Shown here: piece after piece, positions 1,929 to 56,987 of the stretch
Layout of the letters: every line of letters starts with the position of its first letter
Numbering within the stretch: position 1 is the first letter of the stretch
Assembly: GCA_025655455.1 (NCBI GenBank)
Contig: JAHXIV010000007.1
Span: forward strand, 186,001-250,000
DNA length: 64,000 bases
From: a gamma proteobacterium symbiont of Taylorina sp.
GTDB lineage: Bacteria; Pseudomonadota; Gammaproteobacteria; GRL18
Direction: 5' to 3'
Program-made: the position numbers and the translations under genes
The notes under the pieces: generated by a model
Told to the model about the DNA's origin: nothing
The model's database searches: none
What the model saw: only the letters and a program-made list of their open reading frames with translations

Positions 1929-1940
1929 CGATACTGTTAA

Positions 1941-2031
1941 GAGCCTTCAGTAAATGAAATTTATCACTGTCGCTTTGCTAATATTTTTTATAGCAAAGAA
2001 AGACATTGAAAAAATTCATGTTAGATAAGAG
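1941..2031 (+). repeat. Palindromic repeat, copy B, between aioB and aioA
   Basis: It starts GAGCCTTCAGTAAATGAAAT 12 bases after the aioB stop and ends TTCATGTTAGATAAGAG just before the aioA ribosome binding site. The left arm (ATCACTGTCGCTTTGCTA) and right arm (TAGCAAAGAAAGACATTG) can fold into a long imperfect hairpin in the aioBA transcript. The last motif, ATAAGAGG, is duplicated directly downstream, and the second unit is the likely Shine-Dalgarno of aioA. Confidence 0.75.
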
Positions 2032-2048
2032 GATAAGAGGAAAAAATA

Positions 2049-4520: not shown

Positions 4521-4641
4521 CATTTTCTTGGCAAATATTTGGCGCATGGATATTGTTGTCTGTGTGCTAAATATTGCAACGTTATAAGTGGCAGAAAAAA
4601 TATAAAACTCAAACACCTCAGTACATATTGAAGGAAATAAT

Positions 4642-5589
4642 ATGAAATATAAAAATTTCATCCGTGGAATATCACTAACGCTGATCAGTTTAATGCTGCT
4701 TCCATTACCGACAACAGCATCGACAACAACACTCGATCTGCCCGGTCCTCTAGTGGAAACTGAATGGCTGGAATCTAATTTACCAAATGTGGTTTTACTC
4801 GATGTGCGTAAAAAAGTTAACAAAGATAGCAAAAGAATATCTGGAGCAATCATCGTTCCATGGAAAAAAGTACGAGCCAAAAAGAAAGAAAATGGTGTTG
4901 ATTTAATTAAAATGCTTCCAGAGAAACATGCCTTTGAAGACTTGATGCAAAGTGTGGGGGTAAACAATGACAGCGTGATTGTAGTCACTAGCGAATCAAC
5001 AAATGCAGATAATACATTTTTTGGAACCCGCCTGTACTGGCAATTAAAGTATTTTGGACACGATAATGTTTCCCTTTTGAATGGCGGCAATGCGAAATGG
5101 TTTAAAGAAAAAAGAACATCATCAAGTAAAAATACCCGCCATGACAAAGGGGTATTTAAGGTAAGTAAAGTGAACAAGGATATTCTTGCGACAACAAAAG
5201 ACGTTGAAAAAGCAGTAAACGACAAGAATACAACATTGATAGATACACGTTCGGAAGATATGTATCTGGGTCTGTTCTACAAAAAGACATACGTGTATGG
5301 ATCGGGTCATATCCCTGGCGCCAAATCTGCAGATGGTGATATTTTTTTAAAATATGGAAAAGTTAAAACATTTCATGCCCCGGAAAAAATTAAAACAGCA
5401 TTAATGGCCAAAGGAATTGATCCTGAATCCAAATCCATTGTTTATTGCAATAGTGGGCATTTGGGTAGTGGTGTATGGTTCATAGAACATGAGATTTTGG
5501 GGAATATGAATGCCTCATTGTACGATGGTTCGATGCATGCGTGGACAAAGGATAGTGATCGCCCGGTTATTAGTATGAAAATGGAATAA
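4642..5589 (+). CDS. Secreted two-domain rhodanese-like sulfurtransferase
   Basis: 315 residues with a Sec signal peptide (hydrophobic core about residues 8-22, cleavage probably near ASTTT). Two rhodanese domains follow. The first (about 36-160) has DVRKK but no cysteine in its active loop. The second (about 185-310) has IDTRSEDMY, HIPGAKSA and the loop CNSGHLGSG with the catalytic Cys at residue 269. It should move sulfane sulfur in the periplasm, for example from thiosulfate to a thiol acceptor. It begins 121 bases after aioA on the same strand (AAGGA site at about 4630), so it may belong to the aio unit. A role in thioarsenic or sulfur chemistry is my inference. The family is secure; the substrate is not. 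Confidence 0.85.
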   Translation: MKYKNFIRGISLTLISLMLLPLPTTASTTTLDLPGPLVETEWLESNLPNVVLLDVRKKVNKDSKRISGAIIVPWKKVRAKKKENGVDLIKMLPEKHAFEDLMQSVGVNNDSVIVVTSESTNADNTFFGTRLYWQLKYFGHDNVSLLNGGNAKWFKEKRTSSSKNTRHDKGVFKVSKVNKDILATTKDVEKAVNDKNTTLIDTRSEDMYLGLFYKKTYVYGSGHIPGAKSADGDIFLKYGKVKTFHAPEKIKTALMAKGIDPESKSIVYCNSGHLGSGVWFIEHEILGNMNASLYDGSMHAWTKDSDRPVISMKME

Positions 5590-5923
5590 TAAACAAGATT
5601 AAAATGCCCAGTGGAATTTATTTGATTACAAAGAAATAAAATGAAACTAAAAGCAAAACCTTTTATGCAGATACTTCATTATTAAGCAATTAAAAGCAAT
5701 AATTGATGCCAAACAAGATTTTTACTGATCGATGCTCATCCAAGGAGGGAATTTGCGCCGGGTGGAAAGATGCGGGCTATCCATTTAAAACTATTAAATG
5801 ATATTGTGATATTTATGAAACAGGCCTTTGTTAAATAGTATCCAGGCTAATACCCCGTCTACTCTTGTTAAGGACTAGTAACGGGGTTGCTGTTTCACAA
5901 ATAAATATCAGTCTTATTATTAT
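5590..5923. other. Intergenic region between convergent genes
   Basis: No gene is certain here. A short frame at 5706-5801 (31 codons, with CSSKEGICAGWKDAGYPF) has no ribosome binding site. An overlapping frame reads LIDAHPRREFAPG, which looks faintly like a rhodanese LIDVR...EF..GH segment. Either may be a decayed fragment. The hairpin at 5852-5887 is listed separately. Confidence 0.35.
5852..5887 (-). terminator. Possible terminator of the flavoprotein gene
   Basis: ACCCCGT (5852-5858) and ACGGGGT (5881-5887) form a 7-bp stem with a long loop, 37 bases downstream of the minus-strand stop codon. No clear U-tract follows, so this is tentative. Confidence 0.3.
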
Positions 5924-7249
5924 TTAGTCACTGCAGCATCCAATCTTGTTTTCTTCAGTTTGTTGTGATGTGGGATCACAACATTCCTCTTCATTATCGT
6001 TATCTAAAGGTGCTGAGCATACGCCTGTTTCAGGCAAGACCAGTTCTACCCGTGCCGCCCCTTCTTTATCGCCGACAATATCAGCAATAATCGAACGTAC
6101 CTGTTCATATCCTGTGATCATCAGAAAGGTGGGAGCACGCCCGTAGGATTTCATGCCTGCTATATAGAATCCTGTCTCCGGCTGAGCCAACTCACGTGCG
6201 CCATGAGGACGTACTGTTCCACAGGAATGTACATTAGGATCAATCATAGGAGCAAGTATGGGTGGACATTCAGTTGCAGGATCCAGTTCAAGGCGTAATT
6301 CAGAAGCAAAGGAGTAATCAGGTCGGAAACCGGTGGAAACGACGAGTTCATCTACCGTCACATATTTATCCTCTTCGATTGCACCGGAACTGATTTTTAA
6401 TCCATCGGTTTGCCGGGCAATATGCGACAGGTAAAAACCGGATTCGATTGTTATTTTTCCAGCTTCAACCAAATGCTTGAATTTAGTGCCAAGTGCGCCT
6501 CTGGCTTCAATCTGGTCATTATCACCACCACCAAAGGAATGCTCGGTATCTTCATCTCTGACCAACCAGGTGATGTCTGTATCCGGGGCATCTTCTTTTA
6601 AAGTAATGAGATCCAGAATAGTCCCTACTGCAGAGTGTCCGCCGCCTAAAACAGCGACCCGCCTATTGGTAAACTGTTCCCGTTTCTTACCCAGTACATC
6701 AGGCATGACATAGCTAATATGATCTGATGCTTCGGACTCTCCGAAGGCAGGAAGTCCGTTTGAGCCTGCTGGATTCGGCGTGAACCAGGTGCCTGAGATA
6801 TCAATCACCGCATCAGCCAGCACAACTTGCTGCTTGCTATCCTGTGTATAACGAATTTCAAACTTTGCCTTTTCCCTGTCCTCTGTCATTAGTTTGTCCA
6901 ATCCAACACGACTGATGGCTGTTACTTTGGCTGACAGTTTGATATACTGCTTAAGTATGGTTTGAGTTCCCAATGGCTCGATGTAGCGTTCAATCAGTTC
7001 CCCGCCAGTAGGAAGCCCATCATCATCGGGTCTATCCCAGCCTGCGTCGTTCAGTAATTTTTCTGCCGCCATATCAACATTAAACTCCCAGGGAGAGAAC
7101 ATTTTTACATGTTGCCATTGACGAATGGCATGGGCTGCTTCTGCCCCCTGTTCAAAGATAATAGGTATTAATCCTCGCTCCAGCGCCTGAGCACCCGCAG
7201 CCAGACCAACGGGGCCAGCGCCTATAATAGCGACAATTTGTGGTTTCAT
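5924..7249 (-). CDS. FAD/NAD(P)-dependent oxidoreductase with Cys-Cys tail, arsenic-associated
   Basis: 441 residues. An FAD-binding Rossmann motif is at the N-terminus (IIGAGPVGLAAG, residues 8-19) and a second dinucleotide-binding motif (VLGGGHSAVG) is near residue 200, as in flavin monooxygenase-like and thioredoxin-reductase-like proteins. The tail carries two cysteine pairs (EECCD and GCCSD), which could bind a soft metal or arsenite. There is no CxxC redox pair of the TrxB kind. It is soluble and cytoplasmic. It faces the aio-rhodanese genes and diverges from the P-type ATPase gene, so a shared promoter region lies at 7250-7488. It resembles flavoproteins (ArsO-like) found in arsenic gene clusters. 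The reaction is unknown to me, and the arsenic link is inferred from context and the cysteine tail. Confidence 0.75.
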   Translation of the reverse strand: MKPQIVAIIGAGPVGLAAGAQALERGLIPIIFEQGAEAAHAIRQWQHVKMFSPWEFNVDMAAEKLLNDAGWDRPDDDGLPTGGELIERYIEPLGTQTILKQYIKLSAKVTAISRVGLDKLMTEDREKAKFEIRYTQDSKQQVVLADAVIDISGTWFTPNPAGSNGLPAFGESEASDHISYVMPDVLGKKREQFTNRRVAVLGGGHSAVGTILDLITLKEDAPDTDITWLVRDEDTEHSFGGGDNDQIEARGALGTKFKHLVEAGKITIESGFYLSHIARQTDGLKISSGAIEEDKYVTVDELVVSTGFRPDYSFASELRLELDPATECPPILAPMIDPNVHSCGTVRPHGARELAQPETGFYIAGMKSYGRAPTFLMITGYEQVRSIIADIVGDKEGAARVELVLPETGVCSAPLDNDNEEECCDPTSQQTEENKIGCCSD

Positions 7250-7402
7250 AGTATTTTTATCTCCTGAGTTGATTAAAGCGTATATTCTATGAGAACCTGA
7301 TCAGGGTAGCAACTCCACCGTTTATTTGTATGTTTTAAAACCAAATATTTCTCAATTTGGGTGTTAATTTCCTTTATATATTATAGTATACTCTATATAC
7401 GG

Positions 7403-7439
7403 ATTAACATATTAAGGCAGTAATAATTAACATATGTTA
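7403..7439. promoter_or_regulatory. Candidate operator in the divergent promoter region
   Basis: ATTAACATAT occurs at 7403-7412 and again at 7426-7435, 23 bases (about two helical turns) apart. The second copy is part of the perfect 12-base palindrome TAACATATGTTA (7428-7439). They lie about 50-85 bases before the P-type ATPase start and could be sites for a regulator of the flavoprotein/ATPase pair. No regulator gene is adjacent. Confidence 0.4.
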
Positions 7440-7488
7440 TATTGTTGCTGATTTCAGCTAGTTTATTATTAGGAAGGATTTAATTACA

Positions 7489-9588
7489 GTGATAGAAGCT
7501 TTATTCTTAATTGGTGGAAACCTTCTTGGTATCAGCCTATATTATAAAAATAAAAAAAAGTCGAAAAAACAACACCTCCATGCCTTGATGGGAAGTGGCC
7601 CCCGACCACTTGCTGTATCAGTGGATGACACTGGCCAAGTTAATACAATTACAGAAATCGATCAAAAAAAGGAAAAAACCAAAGAAGAAATAGCGGCCAT
7701 GCGCGTTTTGAATAGCAATGTTGGTTCTGTCGTCTTGCTGGTTGCTTCCCGGGCTTATCCTATTCTTACCTTGCCCGGTATGGCTCTGGCGGTCTATGGT
7801 TGTATTCCTATATATAAACGCACCTATATCTCAGTAATCAAGGAAAGAAAGCTGAAAAATGACCTGCTAAATGGTTTGGTAGTGACAGGAACCCTGGCAA
7901 CCGGACATTTTCTGGTGACTGCGTTATTTACCTTTGTTTCAAATCTTGGAACCGTTGTTGTGCAAAAAAGCAAAGGCTATTCCGAAGAGATGCTAAAGGG
8001 GGTGTTTGATCAAAAGGTCAGTACAGTATGGTTGTTACGAGATGGTAGCGAAATTGAGACACCAATTGAAGAAGTAAAAATCAACGATGTGGTTATTGTG
8101 CATACCGGGGAGTTGATTCCGCTGGATGGTATTATCGTTAAGGGCGCGGTTACAGTTGATCAGCATGCCTTGACTGGAGAATCCATACCCGTTGAAAAGG
8201 CTGAAGGTGATAAGGTATTAGCTTCTACGGTAGTCATTGCGGGTTATGCCCGAATTGAGGTCACGCAGACTGGCGAAAATACAGTGGTCGCAAAGATAGA
8301 AAATGTATTACAGGGAACTTCCCATTTTAAAACGGGTCTCCAGCTAAAAGGCGAAAGCTGGGCAGATAAGGCTGCTGCTCCTATCCTGGGTCTGGGTGTG
8401 CTGTTGTGGCCTTTTCAAGGTGCGGCTGTAACAACAGCAGTATTTAATATGAGTCCTGGTAATGGCATCCGTTTATCTGCCTCAGCGCAAACACTCACTC
8501 ATATCATTCTGGCTGCCCAGGAAAATATTCTGATCAAAGACGGCAGGGTTCTTGAGCAATTAATGGAAGTGGATACGGTCATCTTTGACAAGACCGGAAC
8601 CCTGACTGAAGACGAGCATGCAGTGAGTCGTATCCTGTGTGCAAATAATGATTATAGTGAAGATGATATTTTATACTTTGCGGCAGCAACCGAACAAAAA
8701 GTGAGTCATCCATTAGCCAGAGCGATTATAGAAAAGGCTGAAGCGTTAGAGCTAACTCTGCCGGATGTTGCGTTATCCGATTCCAGATATGAAGTCGGCA
8801 TGGGGGTTACTGCTACTGTTAATGGTAAAACCACTCAGGTGGGTAGCTTGCCCTTTATGGAGAAGGCAGGCATTCCTATCCCTGATGAAATAAAAGATGA
8901 TGTGCAGGCAACCATCGCCGATGGATTTTCTGTAGTGATGGTGGTTGTTGAAAGTCAGATTGTCGGTGCTATTGAAATTCAGGCACAGTTACGCCCTGAG
9001 GTTAAACAGATTATAAAGAGTCTGCGTGGGCATGGCATTAAACATATGTATATCCTGTCAGGTGACCAGCTGGAACCTACCCGTCAGATGGCCGAGATGC
9101 TGGAGCTGGACGGTTACTTCCATAATGTGTCTCCCGAAGATAAAAGCAATATTATTGAAAGGCTGCAAGGCGAAGGCAAGAAGGTCTGTTTTATTGGTGA
9201 TGGTATTAACGATGTGATTGCCATGAAAAAGGCAAATGCCTCGATTTCATTAAGTGGGGCGAGCACGATTGCTACAGATGTCGCCCAGGTTATTCTGATG
9301 AACGGAACCTTGCATGAGTTGGATGATTTGTTTGAAATTGCACATCGTCTGAAAAGTAAATTGATCATGACCATTACTTCCTATACGACCGTGGTACTGG
9401 TGTCCTTTACCAGTATCATGTTTCTGGGTGCTCCTCCATTTGTTGCACTGGTTGTACAATCTCTTGTTAATAATACCTATGGGATGTCACAGGCATTGCT
9501 GCCCTTAAAGCAACTGAGAGATAAGAAAAAGAAAGAGTATGAAAATGAACGAAAGTTACTTGCTAAAACAACATCTTTAGAACTGTAA
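7489..9588 (+). CDS. P1B-like P-type ATPase without HMA domain or CPx motif
   Basis: 699 residues with a GTG start behind AGGAAGG. All P-type ATPase landmarks are present: TGES (229-232), the phosphorylated Asp in DKTGTLT (D367), SHPLARAI with the P1B-type HP dipeptide (H407) and GDGIND (from G570). Membrane helices lie before TGES, around residues 295-325 and at the C-terminus. No N-terminal heavy-metal-associated domain is present. The metal-site motif, normally CPC, CPH or SPC in the helix before DKTGT, reads NMSPGNG (S322-P323-G324). The transported ion is therefore unclear. It should export a cation or metal across the inner membrane. A paralogue lies at 23022-25028. It diverges from the flavoprotein gene and is followed by aroA. 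Confidence 0.9.
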   Translation: MIEALFLIGGNLLGISLYYKNKKKSKKQHLHALMGSGPRPLAVSVDDTGQVNTITEIDQKKEKTKEEIAAMRVLNSNVGSVVLLVASRAYPILTLPGMALAVYGCIPIYKRTYISVIKERKLKNDLLNGLVVTGTLATGHFLVTALFTFVSNLGTVVVQKSKGYSEEMLKGVFDQKVSTVWLLRDGSEIETPIEEVKINDVVIVHTGELIPLDGIIVKGAVTVDQHALTGESIPVEKAEGDKVLASTVVIAGYARIEVTQTGENTVVAKIENVLQGTSHFKTGLQLKGESWADKAAAPILGLGVLLWPFQGAAVTTAVFNMSPGNGIRLSASAQTLTHIILAAQENILIKDGRVLEQLMEVDTVIFDKTGTLTEDEHAVSRILCANNDYSEDDILYFAAATEQKVSHPLARAIIEKAEALELTLPDVALSDSRYEVGMGVTATVNGKTTQVGSLPFMEKAGIPIPDEIKDDVQATIADGFSVVMVVVESQIVGAIEIQAQLRPEVKQIIKSLRGHGIKHMYILSGDQLEPTRQMAEMLELDGYFHNVSPEDKSNIIERLQGEGKKVCFIGDGINDVIAMKKANASISLSGASTIATDVAQVILMNGTLHELDDLFEIAHRLKSKLIMTITSYTTVVLVSFTSIMFLGAPPFVALVVQSLVNNTYGMSQALLPLKQLRDKKKKEYENERKLLAKTTSLEL

Positions 9589-11577: not shown

Positions 11578-12378
11578 ATGCGCAATTTATTGCCAGCGTT
11601 TTCGCTTGCCATTTCACTTTTCACAGTCGGTACTGCTATTGCAGGCGAGTCGGTTACCTTTGCTGGTAGCACAACCGTATTTCCGTTCATGGAACAGCTA
11701 ACGCCCTTATTAGCGAAACACGGCATTGACGCCAAAGTCCAGGCTGGCGGATCATCTGCGGGCTTCAAGGCGGCTAAATCGGGTATTGCCCAGTTTGGCA
11801 TGATGTCACGTGAACTGAAGAAAAGCGAACAGCCGCACGTGAAGACATTAGTCATGTCACGTGATTGGCTGATTATGATTGCACACAAGGATGCGCCTTT
11901 CGACAATATTACTTCGAAAGAGATTGTTGATCTCTATACCGGCCATAGCAAAGAGCTGAATGGCTACAAGATCAACGCCATTGCGAAGGAAGCCGGGCGG
12001 GGAACCAAGACGATATTTGATCATTACTTCCATCTGGGCAAAAAGGCAGGCCATCCGATTGCCAGAGACCTGGTTATTATCGGCCCTAATGGTCAGGCTA
12101 TCACCACCGTGGCTGGAGACGTGCACGGGCTGACCATGCTGTCTTATTCCGCCGTGGACGCCGCCATCAAACAGGGTGAGCCGATCAAGATGTTGACGCT
12201 GGATGGTGTTGCAGGCACCCCGGATAATGTAGGAGATGGAAAATACACGCTGCAACGCGCCCTGAATCTGGTGTATTTGCCAAAGAACGCTGCTCTGGCG
12301 GAACGCTTGAAAAAAGCTCTGGCCAATGATGAAGCACGCAAGATCCTTATAGATGGTGGGCTCAAGCCTACTTTATAA
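11578..12378 (+). CDS. PstS-like phosphate-type ABC substrate-binding protein
   Basis: 266 residues with a Sec signal peptide (cleavage near AIAG-ES, residue 22-23). The mature start ESVTFAGSTTVFPFMEQL and the GGSSAGFKAAKSG and FGMMSREL segments match PstS-type periplasmic proteins, whose GST(T/S)V loop and SR segment hold the phosphate. It should capture phosphate, or a related oxyanion, for the permeases encoded next. An AAGGAG site precedes the start. It is separate in sequence and regulation from the pstS at 55985-56869, because no Pho box is visible upstream. This operon lies downstream of the arsenite oxidase genes and looks richer in G+C than its surroundings. Discrimination against arsenate is a reasonable but untested role. 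Confidence 0.85.
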   Translation: MRNLLPAFSLAISLFTVGTAIAGESVTFAGSTTVFPFMEQLTPLLAKHGIDAKVQAGGSSAGFKAAKSGIAQFGMMSRELKKSEQPHVKTLVMSRDWLIMIAHKDAPFDNITSKEIVDLYTGHSKELNGYKINAIAKEAGRGTKTIFDHYFHLGKKAGHPIARDLVIIGPNGQAITTVAGDVHGLTMLSYSAVDAAIKQGEPIKMLTLDGVAGTPDNVGDGKYTLQRALNLVYLPKNAALAERLKKALANDEARKILIDGGLKPTL

Positions 12379-12429
12379 GCGTAATTTGACAAGCAGGCCT
12401 CTTTGGTTTGCTTGGTTGACTATCATATG

Positions 12430-12475
12430 AGCACCTGATCGTGGAACAACGAGATTACTTTCCCGATTAGGTGCT
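12430..12475 (+). promoter_or_regulatory. Intercistronic hairpin between binding-protein and permease genes
   Basis: AGCACCTGATCG (12430-12441) pairs with CGATTAGGTGCT (12464-12475) with one mismatch. Such hairpins after a substrate-binding gene commonly protect its mRNA or reduce read-through, giving more binding protein than permease. Confidence 0.5.
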
Positions 12476-12548
12476 TCGTTGACTAAGACATAACAAATCT
12501 ATAACACCCAGAATTTTATTAAACACAACAAAAGAGATTTTATAGAAC

Positions 12549-13352
12549 ATGAAGTTCATTGTTTTATTATTGGTACTGATACTAGTTTTTATGTTGGCAT
12601 ACCCTCTTGTCAGTTCCATTGATTTCTTTATAGAAATCCCGCTCTCCAACTGGGTTACGCTCGATTGGTATCCTGACGAAGACTATTATGGGATGATGGT
12701 TCCGTTGACCGGCAGTTTACTGCTGGTGATTGTCACCCTCCCCCTGGCGCTTTTAGCTGGCTGGGTACTCAGTCTGCAACTGGTTGATAACCGCAAGAGC
12801 TGGCTCAATCCAGCCACAGTGGCGATACTCGAGGTATGGATTTCCATGCCTTCGGTTATCATCGGCGTCTGGGCGATTATCGAGATCATCCCCATGGTGC
12901 GGGAGACTTTCGGCGGAAACGGTTACTCGCTACTGGCTTCTGCCATTGGCCTGACCATATTTATCACGCCCACCTGCACCCTGTTATTCTACCGCAGCTA
13001 CCTGACCCATCTGGATCAATACCAGGGACTTGAAAACAGCTTTCAGATGTCTACTCTGAGCCGCTCTGAACTGTTTATCAAAAGCCAGCCAACAGCTGTG
13101 ATTGGTACGATCAATTACATTTTTTGCCGCATCTTTGGCGAGACCATGGTGGTGCTGATGCTTTCCGGCAACAGCCTGCAAGTGCCCGGCGATTTTTTGG
13201 ACAGCTTTCGTACGCTGACCGCTAACATTGCACTGGAAATGTCTTATGCAGGAGGCATGCATGAAACCGCTCTGTTCGCCATGGCCAGCATTGCCATCGT
13301 ATTTATCATGATCGTATTACTGGCGCAATATAAGAGGTTGATCCATGTTTAA
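12549..13352 (+). CDS. PstC-like ABC transporter permease
   Basis: 267 residues with about six membrane segments. The first is at residues 1-20, and others are near 55-80, 95-115 and 130-150, with one at the C-terminus. The cytoplasmic coupling loop reads FGETMVVLMLSGNSLQVP, very like the GETMAVLMATGN loop of PstC. It pairs with the next permease to form the membrane channel for the ion brought by the upstream binding protein. The stop overlaps the next gene by 8 bases. It is shorter than canonical PstC (about 310 residues). Confidence 0.85.
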   Translation: MKFIVLLLVLILVFMLAYPLVSSIDFFIEIPLSNWVTLDWYPDEDYYGMMVPLTGSLLLVIVTLPLALLAGWVLSLQLVDNRKSWLNPATVAILEVWISMPSVIIGVWAIIEIIPMVRETFGGNGYSLLASAIGLTIFITPTCTLLFYRSYLTHLDQYQGLENSFQMSTLSRSELFIKSQPTAVIGTINYIFCRIFGETMVVLMLSGNSLQVPGDFLDSFRTLTANIALEMSYAGGMHETALFAMASIAIVFIMIVLLAQYKRLIHV

Positions 13353-14106
13353 ACTTTTCAGACAACGTTGGATTCTGTGGCTGTACATGCTGCTGACAGT
13401 GAGCATCATTGCCACCTTTGTCAAACCCTTGCAATTCGAACATACCACTGCGGGCATTATCGTCGGTACCATTATTACCACGGTTGGAGCGGTGCTGATC
13501 GCCGCCCTGCCCGCCTACCTGATCGCTGGAGTCATGGCGGGCATCGTCCGTCTGCCGAACTGGCTGCAATCGATAACCGCAGTGTCTGTATATATCCTGG
13601 CCGGCATGCCGTCGATCATCCTGGGCGTCATTGGCTTCCTCTTATTCGTCAACGCCCTCGGATTTGGCTGGTCGATACTATCCGCCATGCTGACTCTGAT
13701 CCTGCTGTTGTACCCTACGCTGGTAACCGCCTTCTCCCAAATCCTCAGGCCTTTTAACCAGCGTTACGGCATGGCGGCAAAATCCTTTGATGTCGGTCCG
13801 CTGGAATTCCTGTTTCGTCTGTCACCCGCTTATCAGAAAGGTAAAATCCTTGATGCACTGATTCTTGGCTGGGCGACTTCACTGGGTGATACTGCCGCTG
13901 TCATGTTGACCTGCGGTGCCCTGACTGCTTTTCCTGAATCCATTATGGACTCGATCAGGCTGATAAATTTTCATATTTTCTTACTTGCAATGGATATACC
14001 AGGCGGCATGCCGGAAGCACGAAGTCTTTCGCTGCTGTTGATTATATTTTTACTGTTCCTTTTTCTCGTGCCACGTTTAGCACATCGCTACCTTTCAGAG
14101 GATTAA
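13345..14106 (+). CDS. PstA-like ABC transporter permease
   Basis: 253 residues with about six membrane helices. The loop GWATSLGDTAAVMLTCGA corresponds to the coupling region of PstA (usually ARTTGETAPLLFTA). MPSIILGVIGFLLF matches the Pst permease 'GVPSIVxG' segment. It starts inside the end of the upstream permease gene and is followed 4 bases later by the ATPase gene, so all three should be translated together. Confidence 0.85.
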   Translation: MFKLFRQRWILWLYMLLTVSIIATFVKPLQFEHTTAGIIVGTIITTVGAVLIAALPAYLIAGVMAGIVRLPNWLQSITAVSVYILAGMPSIILGVIGFLLFVNALGFGWSILSAMLTLILLLYPTLVTAFSQILRPFNQRYGMAAKSFDVGPLEFLFRLSPAYQKGKILDALILGWATSLGDTAAVMLTCGALTAFPESIMDSIRLINFHIFLLAMDIPGGMPEARSLSLLLIIFLLFLFLVPRLAHRYLSED

Positions 14107-14110
14107 TACT

Positions 14111-14941
14111 ATGAATGCACAAACGCTTATAACAAACAACGAATCGGCTAATAACGCCCATGTTCAATTATTGTTCGATGAGCCTGAATGTTGCGGCATC
14201 CGCGTCAAAGACCTGAGTATCTTTGCCAAGAAAAAAACCATCCTGACTGTTGATGAAATACGTTTCCCAAAAACTGGAGTGGTCGCCATTATGGGTCCTT
14301 CCGGCTCAGGTAAAAGCACGTTTCTCAAAGTCATGTCAGAGCTTATGGATGAAAATCTGTCTCATAAAGGTAAAATTGATATTACCTGCTTCGATGCAAC
14401 CAATCAGAAAGAGAGCATATGCTCCCACTTTGCCATGGTGTGGCAAAAACCAACTGTATTCCCTTGCTCCATTTGGGATAACCTGAAGGTACCACTGCGT
14501 AAACGTCAGGTTGCCCGCAAGAAGTGGCGTGAACTGATGGAACAGGCGTTGGAAGATGTCGGACTTATGGGGGAACTGGATGATCAATGGGAGAAACAAA
14601 CTGCTCAACGTTTGTCAGGTGGACAGCAGCAACGTCTTTCCATCGCCATGGGTCTGTTGAAGGACTCCAATATCTTTCTATTTGACGAGCCTACCTCCGC
14701 TCTTGACCCAATCTCTACTGATAAAATTGAAAAAATTATAGAAAATCTTGGTAAAAAGAAACTGGTCCTTCTGGTAACCCACAGCCTGGGTCAGGCCAAG
14801 CGCGTCAGTGATTATAGCGCAATGTTCCATAACCATGATGACCAGGGAGCTCTATGCGAATTCTCATCTTCGCAAGCCTTTTTCAAAAGCCCGGCGAGCC
14901 CCCAAAGCCGTGAATTTATTATGATGGAAACAGGTGTTTAG
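14111..14941 (+). CDS. PstB-like ABC transporter ATPase
   Basis: 276 residues. All ATPase motifs are intact: Walker A GPSGSGKST, Q-loop VWQKPTVFP, signature LSGGQQQR, Walker B FLFDEPTSALDP and H-loop LVTHS. It should act as a homodimer that powers the two permeases. The first 40 residues are an unusual acidic extension with an ECCG segment before the conserved domain. It is the last transporter gene; the iPGM-family gene begins 16 bases after its stop. This contrasts with the Pho-box pst operon later in the window, where the motifs are split between two ATPases. Confidence 0.9.
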   Translation: MNAQTLITNNESANNAHVQLLFDEPECCGIRVKDLSIFAKKKTILTVDEIRFPKTGVVAIMGPSGSGKSTFLKVMSELMDENLSHKGKIDITCFDATNQKESICSHFAMVWQKPTVFPCSIWDNLKVPLRKRQVARKKWRELMEQALEDVGLMGELDDQWEKQTAQRLSGGQQQRLSIAMGLLKDSNIFLFDEPTSALDPISTDKIEKIIENLGKKKLVLLVTHSLGQAKRVSDYSAMFHNHDDQGALCEFSSSQAFFKSPASPQSREFIMMETGV

Positions 14942-16692: not shown

Positions 16693-17211
16693 ATGACAGT
16701 AGAACACCCAACCTGGTCAATGTCCATAGGAGACAATGGTGCAGGAATAATTATGATGCCCTGCCCCGGAACAAAAGAAGTCGATGTTGAGAACACAGTT
16801 AGCCAGTTAAAAGAACAGGGTGTGATCGCTATTCTTAGCATGATGACAGATGAAGAAATGAAAAATTTAAATGCTGATAACTTGTCAACAGTGTGTCAAC
16901 AGAATGATATTCAGTGGTTTAATATGGAAACGGATGATCATAAGGTTCCTGGTGAAGATTCTCTGTCAAAATGGGAACAGTACAAGGGAAATCTGGTGGA
17001 TGTTATTAACCAGGGTGGCAAAGTTGCAGTTCATTGCAAGGGAGGGACTGGCAGGACAGGAGTTGGAGTGGCAATGCTGCTATTAGAACTTGGTAAAGAT
17101 GGAGATCAGGCGGTAGCAGATGTAAAAGCCCTGAAACCCGGTGCTTTTAACAGTGATTTGACGGTTGAGTTTATTAAAAAACGGGCAGAAACACTAAAAG
17201 ATAACTCCTGA
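16693..17211 (+). CDS. Cys-based protein tyrosine/dual-specificity phosphatase family protein
   Basis: 172 residues, soluble. The catalytic P-loop is HCKGGTGRTG, with nucleophile C115 and R121 in exact CX5R spacing. The fold resembles the CDKN3/DSP-type phosphatases found in bacteria. A likely general acid is in the METDDHKVP segment (residues 78-86). An AAGGA site precedes the start. Five bases after its stop comes the histidine phosphatase gene, so the two are co-transcribed. It should hydrolyse a phosphoester on a protein or small molecule. Its neighbours (iPGM-family enzyme, histidine phosphatase, phosphate importer) fit small-molecule phosphate metabolism at least as well as signalling. 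Confidence 0.82.
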   Translation: MTVEHPTWSMSIGDNGAGIIMMPCPGTKEVDVENTVSQLKEQGVIAILSMMTDEEMKNLNADNLSTVCQQNDIQWFNMETDDHKVPGEDSLSKWEQYKGNLVDVINQGGKVAVHCKGGTGRTGVGVAMLLLELGKDGDQAVADVKALKPGAFNSDLTVEFIKKRAETLKDNS

Positions 17212-49574: not shown

Positions 49575-50582
49575 CTAAGCGTTAAAAAGGCAGCAAAACT
49601 TACTGCCTTTGCCTATGGTACTGGTCACTTCCAGTGATGCATGATGATGATTAAGGATGTGTTTTACTATTGCCAGCCCCAATCCTGTTCCGCCTTCATT
49701 ACGAGAACGCCCTTTATCAACACGGTAAAAACGCTCCGTTAATCGATGCAGATGTTTTTTTGCAATACCTTCACCATTATCACTGACGGAAAAACAAATT
49801 AATTTATTTTTTTTCACCCATTCAATATGTATATTACCATTTTCCTGTGTATAACGCATGGCATTATTAATCAGGTTTGAAAAGGCACTCTGCAATTCAT
49901 ACTCATTACCTGCTATTAATAATGAATTATCTATATCACTGGTAATTTCCTGATTTTTATTGCTTCTTAAGTGTTTTACATCTTTGATTAATGATTTTAT
50001 TATGCTGGGAATTTGTACTAAATCTGTATCAACCTCTTTATCTGCATTGGCTTCCAGTTTTGATAACATTAGTAAATCCTGGACAAGATTTTCCATTCTC
50101 TGTGATTGATGCTGCATTTCCAGAATAGGAAACAGAAGTGTTTTATCATCTATCAATCGATCTTCAAGGACTTCCAGATAACCCTTTATAACGGTAAGCG
50201 GTGTACGCAGTTCATGAGAAACATTCGCAACAAAGTCCTTTCTCATTTTACTAATACGATGTATCTTGCTGACATTTCTGGCCAGCAAGAAACGAGTATT
50301 ATTAGTGCAGGGTAATAGTGAAAGTGATAAGAACAGACTACTATTGGCAGGAGATTGAATATCAATGCCTCTGGATATTTTTTTTTCAATATCTCTGGAT
50401 GATAAAAAATTTTTTAGCTGAGGATTGTCTATAATCTGGAGAATATTTCTATCCAGATGTTTTTTCTTTTTTAAGCCAAAAAATGACTGTGCCCTTCTAT
50501 TAAAAAATATGATTTTATTTTCTTCATTTAATAGAACAGCTGCATCAGGTATTGCCTCAATATAGGCTTGAAAATTATTCAC
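49575..50582 (-). CDS. phoR: Phosphate-regulon histidine kinase PhoR, without membrane segments
   Basis: 335 residues from a GTG at 50582, which has AGGAA 9 bases upstream; longer in-frame starts overlap phoB. A PAS domain (IEAIPDAAVLLNEENKIIFFN) comes first, then the H-box VSHELRTPLTVIKGYLEVL, the N-box NLINNAMRYTQ and the G-boxes DNGEGI and GGTGLGLAIV. It should phosphorylate PhoB in low phosphate. Typical PhoR has two N-terminal membrane helices and about 430 residues. Here none remain, and upstream sequence is phoB, so it appears to be a soluble PhoR. Confidence 0.9.
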   Translation of the reverse strand: MNNFQAYIEAIPDAAVLLNEENKIIFFNRRAQSFFGLKKKKHLDRNILQIIDNPQLKNFLSSRDIEKKISRGIDIQSPANSSLFLSLSLLPCTNNTRFLLARNVSKIHRISKMRKDFVANVSHELRTPLTVIKGYLEVLEDRLIDDKTLLFPILEMQHQSQRMENLVQDLLMLSKLEANADKEVDTDLVQIPSIIKSLIKDVKHLRSNKNQEITSDIDNSLLIAGNEYELQSAFSNLINNAMRYTQENGNIHIEWVKKNKLICFSVSDNGEGIAKKHLHRLTERFYRVDKGRSRNEGGTGLGLAIVKHILNHHHASLEVTSTIGKGSKFCCLFNA

Positions 50583-51273
50583 AAGAATCATTTCCTGTTG
50601 AAAAAATATAGCCACTGCCTCTAACCGTCTGAATCAAACCATCAGATTTAAATTCAGATAAGGTTTTTCTTAAGCGTCTGATATGCACATCAACGGTTCT
50701 TTCATCGATAAATACATCTGCACCCCAGACCTGATCTAATAGCTGGTCGCGGGAAAATACTCGTTCTGTATGTGACATAAAGAAATATAACAATTTATAT
50801 TCTAAAGGCCCTATTGCAAATTTTTTTCCTGCATAGCTCACTTTATGTGATTCAGAATTAATTTCTAAATCTCCCGCCTTAAGGATTGTTTTGTCAATAT
50901 GTCCGGAACGCCTCAATACAGCATGGATGCGGGCAATCAATTCTCTTGGGGAAAAGGGTTTAACGACATAATCATCAATTCCAACACTAAACCCATGGAT
51001 TTTGTCTTGTTCTTCTGATTTAGCGGTGAGCATAATAATGGGGATGTTAGCATTTTTTTTATTTGCTCTTAGATCTTTTGCAAATTCAACACCGTCTTTA
51101 CCGGGCAGCATCCAGTCCAGTAAAATTAAATCAGGTTTTTTATGTGCGATAGCATTTTGAGCCTGAATAACATTTTCTGTTTCTATCAGATTGATATCAC
51201 TATTAAAAAGTGAAAACTTAATCATGTCTCTGATTGATTTTTCATCTTCAACAAGTAAAATATTTTTTTTCAT
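50575..51273 (-). CDS. phoB: Phosphate-regulon response regulator PhoB
   Basis: 232 residues. The receiver domain has the phosphoacceptor Asp in LILLDWMLPG and the Lys in MLTAKSEE. The winged-helix OmpR-type domain ends with DVHIRRLRKTL and VRGSGYIFS. It binds Pho boxes (see 56921-56969) to switch on phosphate genes. It overlaps phoR by about 8 bases and follows pstB1 by 20. Confidence 0.95.
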   Translation of the reverse strand: MKKNILLVEDEKSIRDMIKFSLFNSDINLIETENVIQAQNAIAHKKPDLILLDWMLPGKDGVEFAKDLRANKKNANIPIIMLTAKSEEQDKIHGFSVGIDDYVVKPFSPRELIARIHAVLRRSGHIDKTILKAGDLEINSESHKVSYAGKKFAIGPLEYKLLYFFMSHTERVFSRDQLLDQVWGADVFIDERTVDVHIRRLRKTLSEFKSDGLIQTVRGSGYIFSTGNDSCE

Positions 51274-51293: not shown

Positions 51294-52082
51294 TTAACCG
51301 TATCGACCTTCAATATAATCAGCTGTTTCTTTTTTATCAGGTGTTACAAACAGATCAGAGGTTTCTTTATGTTCGATCACCTTGCCCATCAGCATAAAAA
51401 TACATTCTTCACTGGCACGTCGAGCCTGTGCCATATTATGAGTTACCAGTAATATGCTATATTCTCCACGCAACTCCCAGATTAGTTCCTCGACAGCTGC
51501 CGTTCCTTTAGGATCCAGTGCCGAACAGGGTTCATCCATTAATAAAATATTGGGTTTTACCGGTAATAATCTGGCAATACAGAGTTTTTGCTGTTCTTCC
51601 AAAGATAAAGCGGTGGCTTTTTGATCCAGACTATCTTTGACCTTATCCCAAAGTAATACCTGACGTAAAGATTTTTCAACGATATCATTATAATCTGCGG
51701 CAGAATATTTTTTATCTTTCACATGCAGTTTGTGGCCAAAGAGTATGTTTTCTTTGATTGAAACAGGCAGTGGATTAGGTCGTTGAAAAACCATACCGAT
51801 TTGTTTACGTACCTGTACTAATTCAACCTTTTCTGCATAGATATTTTGCTCCTGAACATTAATTTTACCATCAATTCGAACATAACCCAGTCGTTCATTA
51901 ATTCGATTCACACTGCGCAGGAAAGTAGATTTCCCACAACCTGAGGGACCGATTAAAGACGTTATCATGCCGTTACGGATATTTAAATCAATATCAAAAA
52001 GTGCCTGAAAAGAACCATACCATAGATTCAGCTTTTCAGTGGTGATTGCATAATCATGTGCTGTATTCATTAGTTTATCCAT
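51294..52082 (-). CDS. pstB: PstB-type ATPase with degenerate signature motif
   Basis: 262 residues. Walker A GPSGCGKS (45-52), Q-loop MVFQRPNP (Q100), Walker B LLMDEPCSALDP (D183, E184) and H-loop LVTHNM (H215) are intact. The ABC signature, normally LSGGQ, is LSLEE (159-163). It should form a heterodimer with the adjacent ATPase, whose signature is intact and whose Q- and H-loops are not. Together they give one normal and one weak ATP site. It drives the PstC-PstA channel. Confidence 0.93.
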   Translation of the reverse strand: MDKLMNTAHDYAITTEKLNLWYGSFQALFDIDLNIRNGMITSLIGPSGCGKSTFLRSVNRINERLGYVRIDGKINVQEQNIYAEKVELVQVRKQIGMVFQRPNPLPVSIKENILFGHKLHVKDKKYSAADYNDIVEKSLRQVLLWDKVKDSLDQKATALSLEEQQKLCIARLLPVKPNILLMDEPCSALDPKGTAAVEELIWELRGEYSILLVTHNMAQARRASEECIFMLMGKVIEHKETSDLFVTPDKKETADYIEGRYG

Positions 52083-52888
52083 TATCCAAAACGTCCCTCA
52101 ATATAATCCAAAGTCAGCGGATCTTTTACTTCACCATTAAAAAGTGCCTCGGTATCACCAATTTCTATACATTTTCCATCCAGAAAAAATGCAGTACGAT
52201 CCGCGAGTCGATGCGCCTGTTGTACCAGATTAGTCACTAATATAATGGTCATTTCATGCTTTAATTCTTTTAGTACATCTTCAATTCGCATCGTGGTGAC
52301 AGGATCAACAGCAATAGAGAATTCATCCAACATTAACACTTCAGGTTCCTGTGACAAAGCCCTGGCAATGGTTAAACGCTGCTGCTGACCACCGGAGAGC
52401 AGACTACCCAGAGAGTTCAGTCGATCTTTGACTTCATCCCAGAGTGCGGCACGCTGTAAACAACGCTCTACAATTTGATCCAGGGAGGTTTTGTCTTTGA
52501 TGCCCCGCAGACGCGGAGACAAGGCCACATTTTCATATATTGTTAAGGGCAAGCCCACTGGCAGGGGAAATACTACGCCGATACGGCTGCGCAGGGCATA
52601 GACATTTCTAAGCTGATGAATATCCCGGTTATTAAAGCGAATATCACCCTCTACTTTCATATTGGCATCAAAAGTATTCATCAGATTGAGTGATTTTAAA
52701 AAGCTGGTTTTACCCGCATTAGCCGGGCCGATAATGCCGAAAATTTCATTTTCATAGATTTTCAGACTGACATCACTGAGAGCAGCTTTTCCAGCATAAG
52801 AAATTGTCAGGTCATTGACTTCTATTTTACATTTCTGTGCTTTTACTACTCTATCAAACTCTGTATCAACAACTGTTTTTTCTACCAT
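52082..52888 (-). CDS. Second PstB-type ATPase, degenerate Q- and H-loops
   Basis: 268 residues, overlapping the next gene by one base. Walker A is GPANAGKT (54-61), signature LSGGQ (164-168) is normal, and Walker B LMLDEF (D188, E189) is present. The Q-loop has Pro (VVFPLP, P108) instead of Gln, and the H-loop has Asn (LVTNLV, N220) instead of His. The D-loop is IAVD. Pairing with PstB1 would restore one complete catalytic site. It overlaps the pstA stop by 7 bases. Confidence 0.9.
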   Translation of the reverse strand: MVEKTVVDTEFDRVVKAQKCKIEVNDLTISYAGKAALSDVSLKIYENEIFGIIGPANAGKTSFLKSLNLMNTFDANMKVEGDIRFNNRDIHQLRNVYALRSRIGVVFPLPVGLPLTIYENVALSPRLRGIKDKTSLDQIVERCLQRAALWDEVKDRLNSLGSLLSGGQQQRLTIARALSQEPEVLMLDEFSIAVDPVTTMRIEDVLKELKHEMTIILVTNLVQQAHRLADRTAFFLDGKCIEIGDTEALFNGEVKDPLTLDYIEGRFG

Positions 52889-53793
52889 TTTTTCTGACCT
52901 CGTAAATACATTCTTAATGCAATTGACACACTATTCATTAATAACACCATACCAATTAACACCAATGCCACCGCATAAGGTAATGCCTCAGGTACATTGG
53001 GTACCTGGGTAGACACCACAAACAGGTGTAATGATAAAGCCATGGTTTGATCAAATATACCCTGCGGTAAAAACGGCAGGAAGAATGCGGCTCCGGTAAA
53101 CATAATTGGTGCAGTTTCCCCTGTGGTTCTGGAGACCTCAAGAATAACACCGGTTAAGATACCGCTGACTGCGTTAGGTAATACCACCCGTCGAATGGTT
53201 TGCCAACGTGTAGCACCCATATTCCAGCAGGCTTCACGAAAAGCATGAGGGACTGCCTGCAATGATTCACGGGTTGAAACAATCACCACCGGCAGCGTCA
53301 TAATCGCCAGGGTTAAACTGGCGGCTAAAATACTGGTGCCAAAGCCGAAAAACATCACGAACGCACCCAGACCAAATAAGGCATGAACGATGGACGGTAC
53401 TCCGGCCAGGTTGATAATCGCCAGATTGATAATACGCGTAAACCAGTTGTCGGAGGCATACTCACTCAGGTAGATTGCCGCAGCAATACCCAGAGGGACA
53501 GAAACCAATAATGCCAGACTGACTAGCCAGACCGTGCCCAGTAAAGCAGGAAAAACACCGCCTTCTGTCATGCCGTTAACCGGATCAGTAAATAAAAAAT
53601 CAATGGAAATCATCGATCCGCCCTTTACAATCAATGTACCCAGAATTACTAATACGGGCAGGATGAGTAACAGGGTCATCATCAAAAAAAGGACACTATA
53701 GAGTTTTTGAGTCTTTTTATTTTTTACATTCAGCGCAGAAACAGAAAACATTGACTCTGCTGAATTAGCTTTTTCAAGCGTAGTTTTATGCAT
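52882..53793 (-). CDS. pstA: Phosphate ABC transporter permease PstA
   Basis: 303 residues with six predicted membrane helices. The coupling loop reads RTTGETAPIMFTGAAFFLPF, the PstA pattern, and GVPSIVHALFGLG is the family's PSI motif. It forms the phosphate channel with PstC. The first 30 residues are a cytosolic extension. Confidence 0.94.
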   Translation of the reverse strand: MHKTTLEKANSAESMFSVSALNVKNKKTQKLYSVLFLMMTLLLILPVLVILGTLIVKGGSMISIDFLFTDPVNGMTEGGVFPALLGTVWLVSLALLVSVPLGIAAAIYLSEYASDNWFTRIINLAIINLAGVPSIVHALFGLGAFVMFFGFGTSILAASLTLAIMTLPVVIVSTRESLQAVPHAFREACWNMGATRWQTIRRVVLPNAVSGILTGVILEVSRTTGETAPIMFTGAAFFLPFLPQGIFDQTMALSLHLFVVSTQVPNVPEALPYAVALVLIGMVLLMNSVSIALRMYLRGQKKW

Positions 53794-53839: not shown

Positions 53840-54772
53840 CTATTGATTCTTGATCCCGCGAACAATCAAATCAGCAGTCAGATTGATAATAAAGGTAATC
53901 AGGAACAGGAAAATACCAATACTGAATAACACCTGATAATGTTCTGAACCTACAGCAGTTTCACCCAGTTCAGCTGCAATGGTAGCGGTTAAGGCTCTAA
54001 CCGAATCAAACACACTGCCTGGAATATTGACCGAGTGGCCTGTTGCCATCAGCACCGCCATCGTCTCACCAAAACCACGTCCAACACCCAGTAGGATGGC
54101 ACCTAATAGTCCATTTTTTGCAGCCGGTAATACCGTTTTATAAATAACCTGCCAACGGGTTGCACCCAGTGCTTCTGCTGCTTCTCTATAACGATCGGGT
54201 ACGGCTTTAAGTGCATCTTCTGCAATAGAAGTCATAATAGGAGCCGCCATAAGACCGAGAATAATCCCTGCATTCAGTACACTGAGTCCCACCGGCACAT
54301 CAAATGTTTCAATAATGAGTGGATTCATAATGGATAAACCGATAAAGCCCCAGACCACTGAAGGAATAGCGGCTAACAATTCGACTAATACTTTGAGATA
54401 TTCCCTGGTTTTTCCAGTGGAAAATTCGGCAATATAGATTGCCGCACCCAAAGAAAAAGGGATTGCAATCAGCATGGCCAAACCTGTGACACTGGCGGTA
54501 CCGGCAATTAAAGCCAGCATACCGTATTCGGGGTCATCTTCATCACTGGGTTCCCAATATTCTGAACCAAACACCTCAGTAAAAGAAAACCCTTCCAATA
54601 AGAAACCCATGCCTTCGACGGTAACAAAAACAAAAATACCGACAACAAAAATAATGGCTGAAATACCACTGATAAAAACAATCATTTGCACCAGCTTGTC
54701 AAAATACCAGTCCATATTGCGTTGATCAAATAGATCGTCCATTTGTTTGCTACTACTCTCTAGCTTAGCCAT
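53840..54772 (-). CDS. pstC: Phosphate ABC transporter permease PstC
   Basis: 310 residues, six membrane helices. The coupling loop GFGETMAVLMATGHSVNIP is typical, as is AAIPSVVWGFIGL. It starts 2 bases after phoU. An acidic insert (GSEYWEPSDEDDPEYG, residues 69-84) is part of the periplasmic loop. Confidence 0.94.
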   Translation of the reverse strand: MAKLESSSKQMDDLFDQRNMDWYFDKLVQMIVFISGISAIIFVVGIFVFVTVEGMGFLLEGFSFTEVFGSEYWEPSDEDDPEYGMLALIAGTASVTGLAMLIAIPFSLGAAIYIAEFSTGKTREYLKVLVELLAAIPSVVWGFIGLSIMNPLIIETFDVPVGLSVLNAGIILGLMAAPIMTSIAEDALKAVPDRYREAAEALGATRWQVIYKTVLPAAKNGLLGAILLGVGRGFGETMAVLMATGHSVNIPGSVFDSVRALTATIAAELGETAVGSEHYQVLFSIGIFLFLITFIINLTADLIVRGIKNQ

Positions 54773-54774
54773 GT

Positions 54775-55839
54775 TTATACCTCATCGCCATGTAACAGGT
54801 TCAGTAAATCACTGATATATAAAGCTAAAGTGCGATACAGAGTTTCTATATTCTGATCTTCAGACTCAGAACTGATATCCCACTCTAAGGTACTGGTATG
54901 AAAAGGAATATTTTCTATATAAGAGCTGAGCTTCCCCTGTAAACTGATAATGAGATGTTGTTCTGAAATTTCCTGGTGACTTATATCATTCAGGCAGGTG
55001 GTGCTTAGTTCAGATGTTTCTACACTTCTGGAACCAAGAAAAGTGACCAGTTCCGGGCTAATGTTTGCGGCAGCTGTACGGCCGGCACTTCGATAAGTGC
55101 AAATATCAGGATGATTTTTTTGTGCAATAGCTTCAGCCAGTTGGCTTGAAATGCTATTGTCTTTATCAATAAACAGGATTTTATAAATTTTGCGGGCTTT
55201 TTGTTCACCGGTGACAGCAAAAATCGTATCTTCGCAAAGATTTTTTGCTTGATCTGCAACACGTTTAAGCTGGGTAAAAATAACAAACAGGGCTAAAGTG
55301 TCTTTGACATTTTGTTTCTGAGTGTTCTGGGTAATTTCCTGATAAACCACATCCAGGTTATATTCCATACTCCTGGCCATGACTATGGTGCTGCGTGCTA
55401 ATTCAGAGTTCAACTCTGCAAATGCCTTGATGGATTGTTTCAGCATCAATTGTGTTTCAGCGGCCAGTCGATCGATTTCTCTGCCCATTGAGCCTTCAGG
55501 AGGTGAACTTAATTGCACGGCTTCTCGTGCAATGACAACGGCGTAATCGCCCATACGTTCCAGTTCAATATTAATTCTTATAATCGAGGACAGTAAACGT
55601 AAATGTGTGCCGCTGGGCAGGTGTACGGCAATAAATTTATGACATAATCGATCAATTGCCCGCATGGTTCGGTTAATGGGATGATCATTCAGAATGGTGT
55701 TGTAAGCTAATTGTTTATCGCCGGTTTGCAAAGCATGAATCGCATCATTAACACCAGTTTGTACATTACGGGCTTGTTCTATAACCCTGCTGCGTATATT
55801 TTTCAAATCATTTTCAAGACGTTGTTCCAGATGAGACAT
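54775..55839 (-). CDS. phoU: PhoU fused to an inactive low-molecular-weight phosphatase domain
   Basis: 354 residues against about 235 for ordinary PhoU. Residues 1-210 form the two three-helix bundles of PhoU (IELERMGDYAVVIAREAV, LKRVADQAKNLCED). Residues about 218-350 (KILFIDKDNSISSQLAEAIA, RSAGRTAA) have the strand-loop-helix start of low-molecular-weight tyrosine phosphatases and thioredoxin-linked ArsC. The P-loop Cys and Arg (CX5R) are replaced by D225 and S231 at exact spacing, so it should be catalytically dead. PhoU transmits the state of the Pst transporter to PhoR. The extra domain may bind a phosphate- or arsenate-like ligand or a partner; this is inference. Confidence 0.85.
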   Translation of the reverse strand: MSHLEQRLENDLKNIRSRVIEQARNVQTGVNDAIHALQTGDKQLAYNTILNDHPINRTMRAIDRLCHKFIAVHLPSGTHLRLLSSIIRINIELERMGDYAVVIAREAVQLSSPPEGSMGREIDRLAAETQLMLKQSIKAFAELNSELARSTIVMARSMEYNLDVVYQEITQNTQKQNVKDTLALFVIFTQLKRVADQAKNLCEDTIFAVTGEQKARKIYKILFIDKDNSISSQLAEAIAQKNHPDICTYRSAGRTAAANISPELVTFLGSRSVETSELSTTCLNDISHQEISEQHLIISLQGKLSSYIENIPFHTSTLEWDISSESEDQNIETLYRTLALYISDLLNLLHGDEV

Positions 55840-55984: not shown

Positions 55985-56869
55985 TTAGTCACATTTCACA
56001 TCTTTTGCAGGGGCATAACCTTTTTTAAGCAGAATACACTGACCTTTATCACTCATAATCCAGTCAAGGTATTTTTTAATTTCACCTTTAGGCTCACCAT
56101 TGGTATACATAAACAATGGACGGGCAATCGGGTAAGAGCGATCACTGGCGGTTGCTACGCTGGGATTAACACATGGCTTGCCGGCTTCCTGGGCAACACA
56201 GGACATTTTTATATGATCATTTGCATAAGCTAAACCACTATAGCCTATGGCGCAGGGGGTTTTTTCAACCAAATCAACCACATCTTTTGAACCGTGCATG
56301 TCTAAGGTACCCTGGCGAAATTTTCCTTTTTTACCGAGTACGGCTTTTTTGAAAAATGCATAAGTACCTGAATTATTCTGGCGACTGACAACAACAATTT
56401 TATCCTGTTTACAACCCGGAACTTTTAAACCCAGATCTGACCATTTGACGGCTTTTCCATCACGGCCAAAAATCTCTTTTAATTGTGCAAAAGAGAGTGT
56501 GTCTGAAGGATTGTCTTTATGCAAGAAAACAGATAAAGCGTCATAACCGACAATATGCTGAATAGGATTTTGTCCCTTGCTTTTTGCCAGTTTAATTTCT
56601 TTTCCCTTCATTGAGCGACTGGCATTAGCAATATCAACAGTGCCGTTAATCATCGCTGCAATTCCAGTTCCAGAACCGCCACCGGAAACGGCTATTGCGA
56701 CATCTTTATCTACATTTCGATATTCTTCTGCCCAGGCTTGAGCGACATTCACTAATGTGTCGGAACCTTTATTTTGAATTACTGTTCTGGCTGATACAGA
56801 ACTGCTTAGGGATAATAATCCAAGGCCTGATATTAAAATGCAGCTGCCTAATATTTGTTTTTTATTCAC
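55985..56869 (-). CDS. pstS: Phosphate-binding protein PstS
   Basis: 294 residues with a Sec signal peptide (to about ASA-RTV, residue 27). The mature start VIQNKGSDTLVNVAQAW, GGGSGTGIAAMINGTVDIANASR and SRQNNSGTYAFF are the PstS phosphate-binding loops. It delivers phosphate to PstC-PstA. It is the first gene of the operon and has two Pho boxes upstream. The 145-base gap after it may lower expression of the genes that follow. Confidence 0.95.
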   Translation of the reverse strand: MNKKQILGSCILISGLGLLSLSSSVSARTVIQNKGSDTLVNVAQAWAEEYRNVDKDVAIAVSGGGSGTGIAAMINGTVDIANASRSMKGKEIKLAKSKGQNPIQHIVGYDALSVFLHKDNPSDTLSFAQLKEIFGRDGKAVKWSDLGLKVPGCKQDKIVVVSRQNNSGTYAFFKKAVLGKKGKFRQGTLDMHGSKDVVDLVEKTPCAIGYSGLAYANDHIKMSCVAQEAGKPCVNPSVATASDRSYPIARPLFMYTNGEPKGEIKKYLDWIMSDKGQCILLKKGYAPAKDVKCD

Positions 56870-56920: not shown

Positions 56921-56969
56921 GTTACAGAATTATGACAATATTAGAACAAATGTGACAGGGTTATGAAAA
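56921..56969 (-). promoter_or_regulatory. Two Pho boxes upstream of pstS
   Basis: On the minus strand TTGTCATAATTCTGTAAC (56938 to 56921) and TTTTCATAACCCTGTCAC (56969 to 56952) fit the PhoB site CTGTCAT-N4-CTGTMAY. They are 31 bases apart, about three helical turns, and 52 bases from the pstS start. They should make the operon PhoB-activated in low phosphate. Confidence 0.8.
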
Positions 56970-56987
56970 TTGGATGATAGTGCTGAG

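Follow-up and report, generated by a model that had tools for sequence, protein, structure and literature searches.

How phosphate status is relayed by Pst, PhoU and PhoR has long been an open question. The usual Pst system resists dissection, its ATPase being a symmetric homodimer. The locus reported here has several described relatives. PhoU (TIGR02135; P. aeruginosa 4q25, A. aeolicus 1t72) is matched in both sequence and fold by residues 1-213 of the protein under study, and the two share a setting in a pst operon with adjacent PhoB/PhoR. The protein differs from PhoU in having an extra 140-residue ArsC-like domain, and in that its gene lies between pstS and pstC. The pI258 ArsC (1jf8; TIGR02691) has in common with this domain its fold, an invariant Trp, the SAG motif and the alpha-1 motif (SQMAE-like), but in our protein the positions of Cys10, Arg16, Cys82, Cys89 and Asp105 are replaced and the domain is fused to PhoU. 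Closer in layout are two PhoU-ArsC fusions with an intact CX5R (in genomes G482 and G432), which also place PhoU before ArsC and lie in a pst operon. However, these have intact ArsC residues and one canonical PstB, and are probably separate fusions. No PhoU-ArsC or PhoU-LMWPc fusion was found in open-access papers.

Two further comparisons concern the ATPase. In Enterococcus faecalis, tandem PstB1 and PstB2 are encoded by adjacent genes of one pst operon and have non-overlapping functions (PMC12096839), whereas the PstB pair described here has complementary losses. Among ABC exporters, heterodimers in which one ATP site is degenerate include BmrCD, TM287/288 and MsRv1273c/72c (PMC4046567, PMC5216877, PMC12038006). 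The Pst ATPase predicted here resembles them in pairing one competent with one degenerate ATP site, but it belongs to a binding-protein-dependent phosphate importer.

The window, meaning the whole 64,000-nucleotide stretch that was analysed, carries on its (-) strand a pst operon with the gene order pstS-phoU-pstC-pstA-pstB2-pstB1-phoB-phoR:

56921..56980, (-): three Pho-box-like pattern matches immediately upstream of pstS, each with 3 mismatches
55985..56869, (-): pstS, the operon's first gene (TIGR02136, 228 bits, above cut-off)
54775..55839, (-): phoU-pseudo-arsC fusion gene, 354 aa, ATG start
55201..55839, (-): PhoU core, residues 1-213, two three-helix PhoU domains (Pfam PhoU, TIGR02135, Foldseek 4q25)
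54778..55200, (-): pseudo-ArsC domain, residues 214-354, ArsC-like over about 218-350 (family profile against the PDB, AlphaFold2, Foldseek)
53840..54772, (-): pstC (TIGR02138, 275.5 bits, above cut-off)
52882..53793, (-): pstA (TIGR00974, 264 bits, above cut-off)
52082..52888, (-): pstB2, with LSGGQ kept, Asn for the H-loop His (52229-52231), the Q-loop gone and DEF for DEP (motif reading against homologues)
51294..52082, (-): pstB1, with Walker A/B and the H-loop kept and LSLEE for LSGGQ (51594-51608) (motif reading against homologues)
50575..51273, (-): phoB (TIGR02154, 316 bits, above cut-off)
49575..50615, (-): phoR, without a transmembrane segment (TIGR02966, 394 bits, above cut-off; best 19-residue hydropathy 1.07)

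PstB is still the best family for PstB1 (322.2 bits) and PstB2 (284.1 bits), although both score under its curated cut-off of 343.2. The Pho-box-like matches are individually weak and 6.4 would be expected across the whole window, which has nine, yet three of the nine fall within 60 bases. Other PhoU matches in the genome lie in frames of about 570-614 aa, which we take to be of the Na/Pi-cotransporter type; outside membrane transporters the genome has no PhoU but the fusion. We take it to be the working PhoU because there is no other PhoU of its type and because of the Pho-box-like cluster upstream of pstS. The window also contains a second, divergent Pst-like cluster (11578-14941, (+)) of a binding protein, two permeases and an ATPase, all under the Pst cut-offs. 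Elsewhere, a protein-tyrosine-phosphatase-like ORF (16693-17211, (+)) with an HCKGGTGRTG motif and no NCBIfam match stands beside a histidine-phosphatase-like ORF. By hydropathy, the PhoR of one other fused locus (L016) also lacks a transmembrane segment, while most other fused loci with a nearby PhoR have one.

Residues 1-213 match Pfam PhoU (E=9e-22, 77.7 bits, cut-off 23.5) and TIGR02135 phoU_full (136.7 bits, above the cut-off of 130.25). The C-terminal domain of the window protein, searched alone, gives weak matches to LMWPc (15.7 bits, below the cut-off of 23.2) and arsC_pI258_fam (E=8e-4), and its TIGR02691 score of 22.3 bits is below the cut-off of 174.3. TIGR02691 ArsC is matched by 44 of 59 family members (best E=3e-19), and the profile of the fusion family reaches solved ArsC structures in the PDB (E=1.6e-16). 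Since the homologues match ArsC and their profile finds its structures, we regard ArsC ancestry as certain at the level of sequence once homologues are included. AlphaFold2 modelled the whole 354-aa protein from 59 sequences with pLDDT 92.1 and pTM 0.84, and Foldseek matched this model to PhoU 4q25 (TM by target 0.93, rmsd 1.4) and to pI258 ArsC 1jf8 (TM by target 0.84, E=1.4e-5). Modelled separately, the C-terminal domain has pLDDT 92.2 and its top Foldseek match is again ArsC 1jf8 (E=1.4e-8, TMt 0.82), with LMW-PTPs ranking lower. By profile and model, then, the domain is assigned to the ArsC-like, thioredoxin-coupled arsenate reductase branch and not to the tyrosine phosphatases. The sequence-only reading of this DNA had proposed an LMWP/ArsC resemblance at the C-terminus of PhoU; profiles, AlphaFold2 and Foldseek bear it out, the closer likeness being to ArsC, and residues 218-350 do yield an LMWP-like fold on structure prediction. 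Some phmmer matches to ubiquitin chains covered 46 residues, passed no single-stretch threshold and were set aside as chance.

The same reading had called the domain catalytically dead, with D225 and S231 at the CX5R positions. Both residues are read exactly so, and all five catalytic ArsC residues are replaced: Cys10, Arg16, Cys82, Cys89 and Asp105 of the thioredoxin-coupled enzyme correspond to D225, S231, Q301, I308 and S324. The principal sites are these:

55147..55167, (-): dead CX5R loop, residues 225-231 (DKDNSIS), Asp225 for Cys and Ser231 for Arg (residue counts over 78 sequences)
54937..54939, (-): residue 301, Gln at the ArsC Cys82 position (Cys in 0/78)
54916..54918, (-): residue 308, Ile at the ArsC Cys89 position (Cys in 1/78)
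54880..54882, (-): Trp320, present throughout the dead family (78/78) and also invariant in true ArsC

The search for further PhoU-LMWP fusions that had also been suggested was made across GTDB species genomes and returned 79 loci. These span Gammaproteobacteria, Bacteroidota/Rhodothermota, Verrucomicrobiota, Acidobacteriota, Myxococcota and Krumholzibacteriota, the labels being those of record titles; many fusion-bearing genomes are metagenome bins, and individual taxon labels may be wrong. The residue counts cover 78 sequences, namely the window protein and 77 loci, with L061 (diverging end) and L071 (truncated) excluded. At the position of the nucleophilic Cys there is Asp in 75 of the 78, Gly in two and Glu in one. 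The phosphate-binding Arg is present in only one of those counted, and a verrucomicrobial fusion outside the 78 (G329) also keeps it. In a quick C-domain tree with many weak inner branches, the dead domains group in a single clade, apart from true ArsC (SH-aLRT 99). Verrucomicrobial members retain more of the old site: most have the acid of the Asp-Pro pair, and two of the eight aligned (L072, L135) have the Arg. Because they do, the change from Cys to Asp looks like the earliest shared step of catalytic loss, at the base of the family. The comparison shows descent from a thioredoxin-coupled arsenate reductase that lost catalysis there, its nucleophile becoming an Asp225 that may fill and order the old anion loop. 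Reading the loop (IDEDN) as a HAD or receiver-domain motif was set aside, as the second acid is not conserved.

Does the domain persist as a functional part, or is it decaying? New conserved positions that are absent from ArsC, Phe313-His314 and Arg350-Gly351 among them, have appeared at a distance from the former catalytic residues. Nearly all homologues, from several phyla, have Asp in place of the Cys, and for this reason the comparison identifies the domain as an old, maintained pseudoenzyme rather than one in decay.

All dead fusions with readable flanks lie in a pst operon whose two pstB genes are degenerate in complementary ways. The order PstS-PhoU-PstC-PstA-PstB2-PstB1 is kept wherever the flanks or contig are long enough; in Verrucomicrobia phoU precedes pstS, and at L016 pstB2 and pstA are swapped when listed by frame start. 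PstB1 lacks LSGGQ in 57 of 57 homologues, with LSLEE, LSLEQ, LQLEQ or LALEE instead; its Walker A, Walker B and H-loop motifs are intact. PstB2 keeps LSGGQ and has Asn for the H-loop His in all 57 readable homologues (72/72 readable over all loci, some overlapping loci being counted twice); its Q-loop is lost (FPLPV) and DEFSIA replaces DEPCSA. In an ABC dimer, each ATP site is made of the Walker motifs of one subunit and the signature of the other. Since the two subunits have lost complementary motifs, we predict an obligate PstB1/PstB2 heterodimer with one competent, hydrolysing ATP site and one degenerate site.

The 687 genomes examined for the fusion, in three draws, were also scanned with a DNA pattern for the DEFSIA(V/I)D sequence of PstB2. 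The gammaproteobacterial draw (274 genomes) held four genomes with both and none discordant. The draw from Verrucomicrobiota, the phylum of G316 (195 genomes), held three with both and one with the pattern only (G491), as did the draw from the phylum of G311 (218 genomes; pattern only in G521). In total, ten genomes have both, two the PstB2 pattern only, 675 neither, and none an intact dead fusion without the pattern. The Fisher p of 1e-20 is descriptive, as it ignores relatedness and two of the three draws were centred on a known fusion carrier. Much of the co-occurrence could reflect common descent of the operon or its transfer as a unit.

At L171 (G491) the asymmetric PstB pair is accompanied by an ordinary unfused PhoU, and at L172 (G521; 3273-7822) the asymmetric PstB1/PstB2 operon has no PhoU gene nearby. 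These two loci contradict the idea that the pair needs a fused PhoU, and the pseudo-ArsC domain is therefore not required by the asymmetric ATPase. In G375 a remnant (L156, 8356-9210) joins the start of the PhoU-pseudo-ArsC gene to the last part of PstB1; the operon between them seems to have been deleted.

The Verrucomicrobiota draw also contained the intact-CX5R fusions of G482 and G432 (L137/L153 and L138/L154), at L153 8819-10123 and L154 6831-7982, in ordinary single-PstB operons ordered pstS-pstC-pstA-pstB-phoU. Their PstB has LSGGQ, DEPCSALDP and the H-loop His. In the C-domain tree, quick as it is, their ArsC parts group with true ArsC outside the dead clade; a single origin for dead and intact fusions was rejected on this ground, and PhoU and ArsC were apparently joined more than once. 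Of the two types, only the dead one accompanies a split ATPase, the intact cases being few (n=2). In the genus and family to which the window belongs, the fusion is distributed patchily. It is present in G278, G283, G287 and G288, of which G283 and G287 also have an ordinary PhoU; in other members, some with incomplete assemblies, an ordinary PhoU alone or none was found. The operon has probably been lost or laterally transferred.

On balance, we think it somewhat more probable than not that the fusion is the cell's only PhoU and that its pseudo-ArsC domain serves for docking or regulation, and not as an oxyanion sensor, in an asymmetric Pst system. Because of its family, operon and neighbours it would act as PhoU, coupling the Pst importer to PhoR/PhoB and restraining both when phosphate is plentiful. 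Most plausibly the pseudo-ArsC domain would dock on one of two partners, the asymmetric PstB1/PstB2 ATPase or PhoR, and the newly conserved Phe313-His314 and Arg350-Gly351 would be in keeping with a newly acquired binding surface. The PhoU of E. coli has contacts with both PstB and the PAS domain of PhoR (PMC4423584).

Three other explanations were weighed. The C-terminal domain may instead be a passive stabilising appendage or a slowly eroding remnant, with all regulation in the PhoU core. Its faster divergence (mean identity of homologues to the window protein 39%, against 55% for the PhoU core) and the unfused PhoU in the asymmetric operon of L171 would suit this, but we think it improbable, as full length and a high-confidence fold are maintained across several phyla and the new conserved positions arose after catalysis was lost.

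A second possibility is that the acidic loop left by the Cys-to-Asp change binds Mg2+ or Mn2+, so that the domain senses metal or a metal-nucleotide. Positions 226-227 are mostly acidic, and position 228 is Asn or Asp in 75/78, alongside the nearly invariant Asp225; moreover, pho activation in Salmonella in low Mg2+ needs PhoU and proceeds via PhoR (PMC9239213). However, the second and third acids vary (D227 is found in 51/78), and a distant conserved acid that would complete the site was not found. We consider metal sensing distinctly unlikely.

The remaining explanation is the one first advanced for this gene, that the dead ArsC fold binds cytoplasmic phosphate or arsenate and lets PhoU sense it directly in an organism that makes arsenate. 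In LMWP/ArsC enzymes the oxyanion is held by loop amides, the Cys and the Arg. Here the site itself is lost along with catalysis: a carboxylate replaces the Cys, the loop Gly has mostly given way to an acidic residue, the Arg survives in hardly any homologue and the loop carries a net negative charge (-2 to -4 in 60/78), so that binding of a phosphate or arsenate dianion in the former anion loop appears unlikely, though the domain may bind an oxyanion elsewhere. As for the supposed arsenate-making host, the genome does encode a true arsenite oxidase, so arsenate is probably made:

1410-4520, (+): aioB and aioA, true arsenite oxidase genes (177 and 1232 bits)

The fusion, however, does not track arsenite oxidation. 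Among 36 fused genomes, AioA is at full strength only in the window's; AioA-model scores in a few others reach 234-399 bits, and the next best (399-373 bits in G283, G298 and G295, from frames of about 900 aa) are just above the 359-bit cut-off and may be other molybdoenzymes. A stand-alone thioredoxin-type ArsC was not found in the window's genome at E<1e-6, the fusion loci sit throughout in pst and not ars operons, and the arsenic connection looks coincidental. Despite its certain ArsC ancestry, the encoded AioBA and a loop Asn228 and Ser232 that are often retained among homologues, direct oxyanion sensing is not supported and we hold it very unlikely, given the acidic, Arg-less loop and the single full-strength AioA.

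Returning to the docking or regulatory domain that we favour, a further step would be a distinct class of phosphate transceptor, in which the heterodimer hydrolyses ATP at one site while the degenerate site serves for signalling to a dedicated PhoU, whose pseudo-ArsC domain reads it, in place of the symmetric PstB homodimer and PhoU of the textbook Pho system. We offer this only as a speculation, and a rather doubtful one. What sets the window's system apart is that its two ATP-binding subunits are encoded by separate genes that have fared differently, and that its PhoU has an extra domain. If the heterodimer is real, mutations at each site could test whether separate ATP sites serve transport and signalling. 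The family also offers a case of an arsenate reductase turned probable regulatory domain through a conserved Cys-to-Asp change. Together, the dead fusion and the lopsided Pst pump point to an undescribed variant of a textbook nutrient-sensing system.
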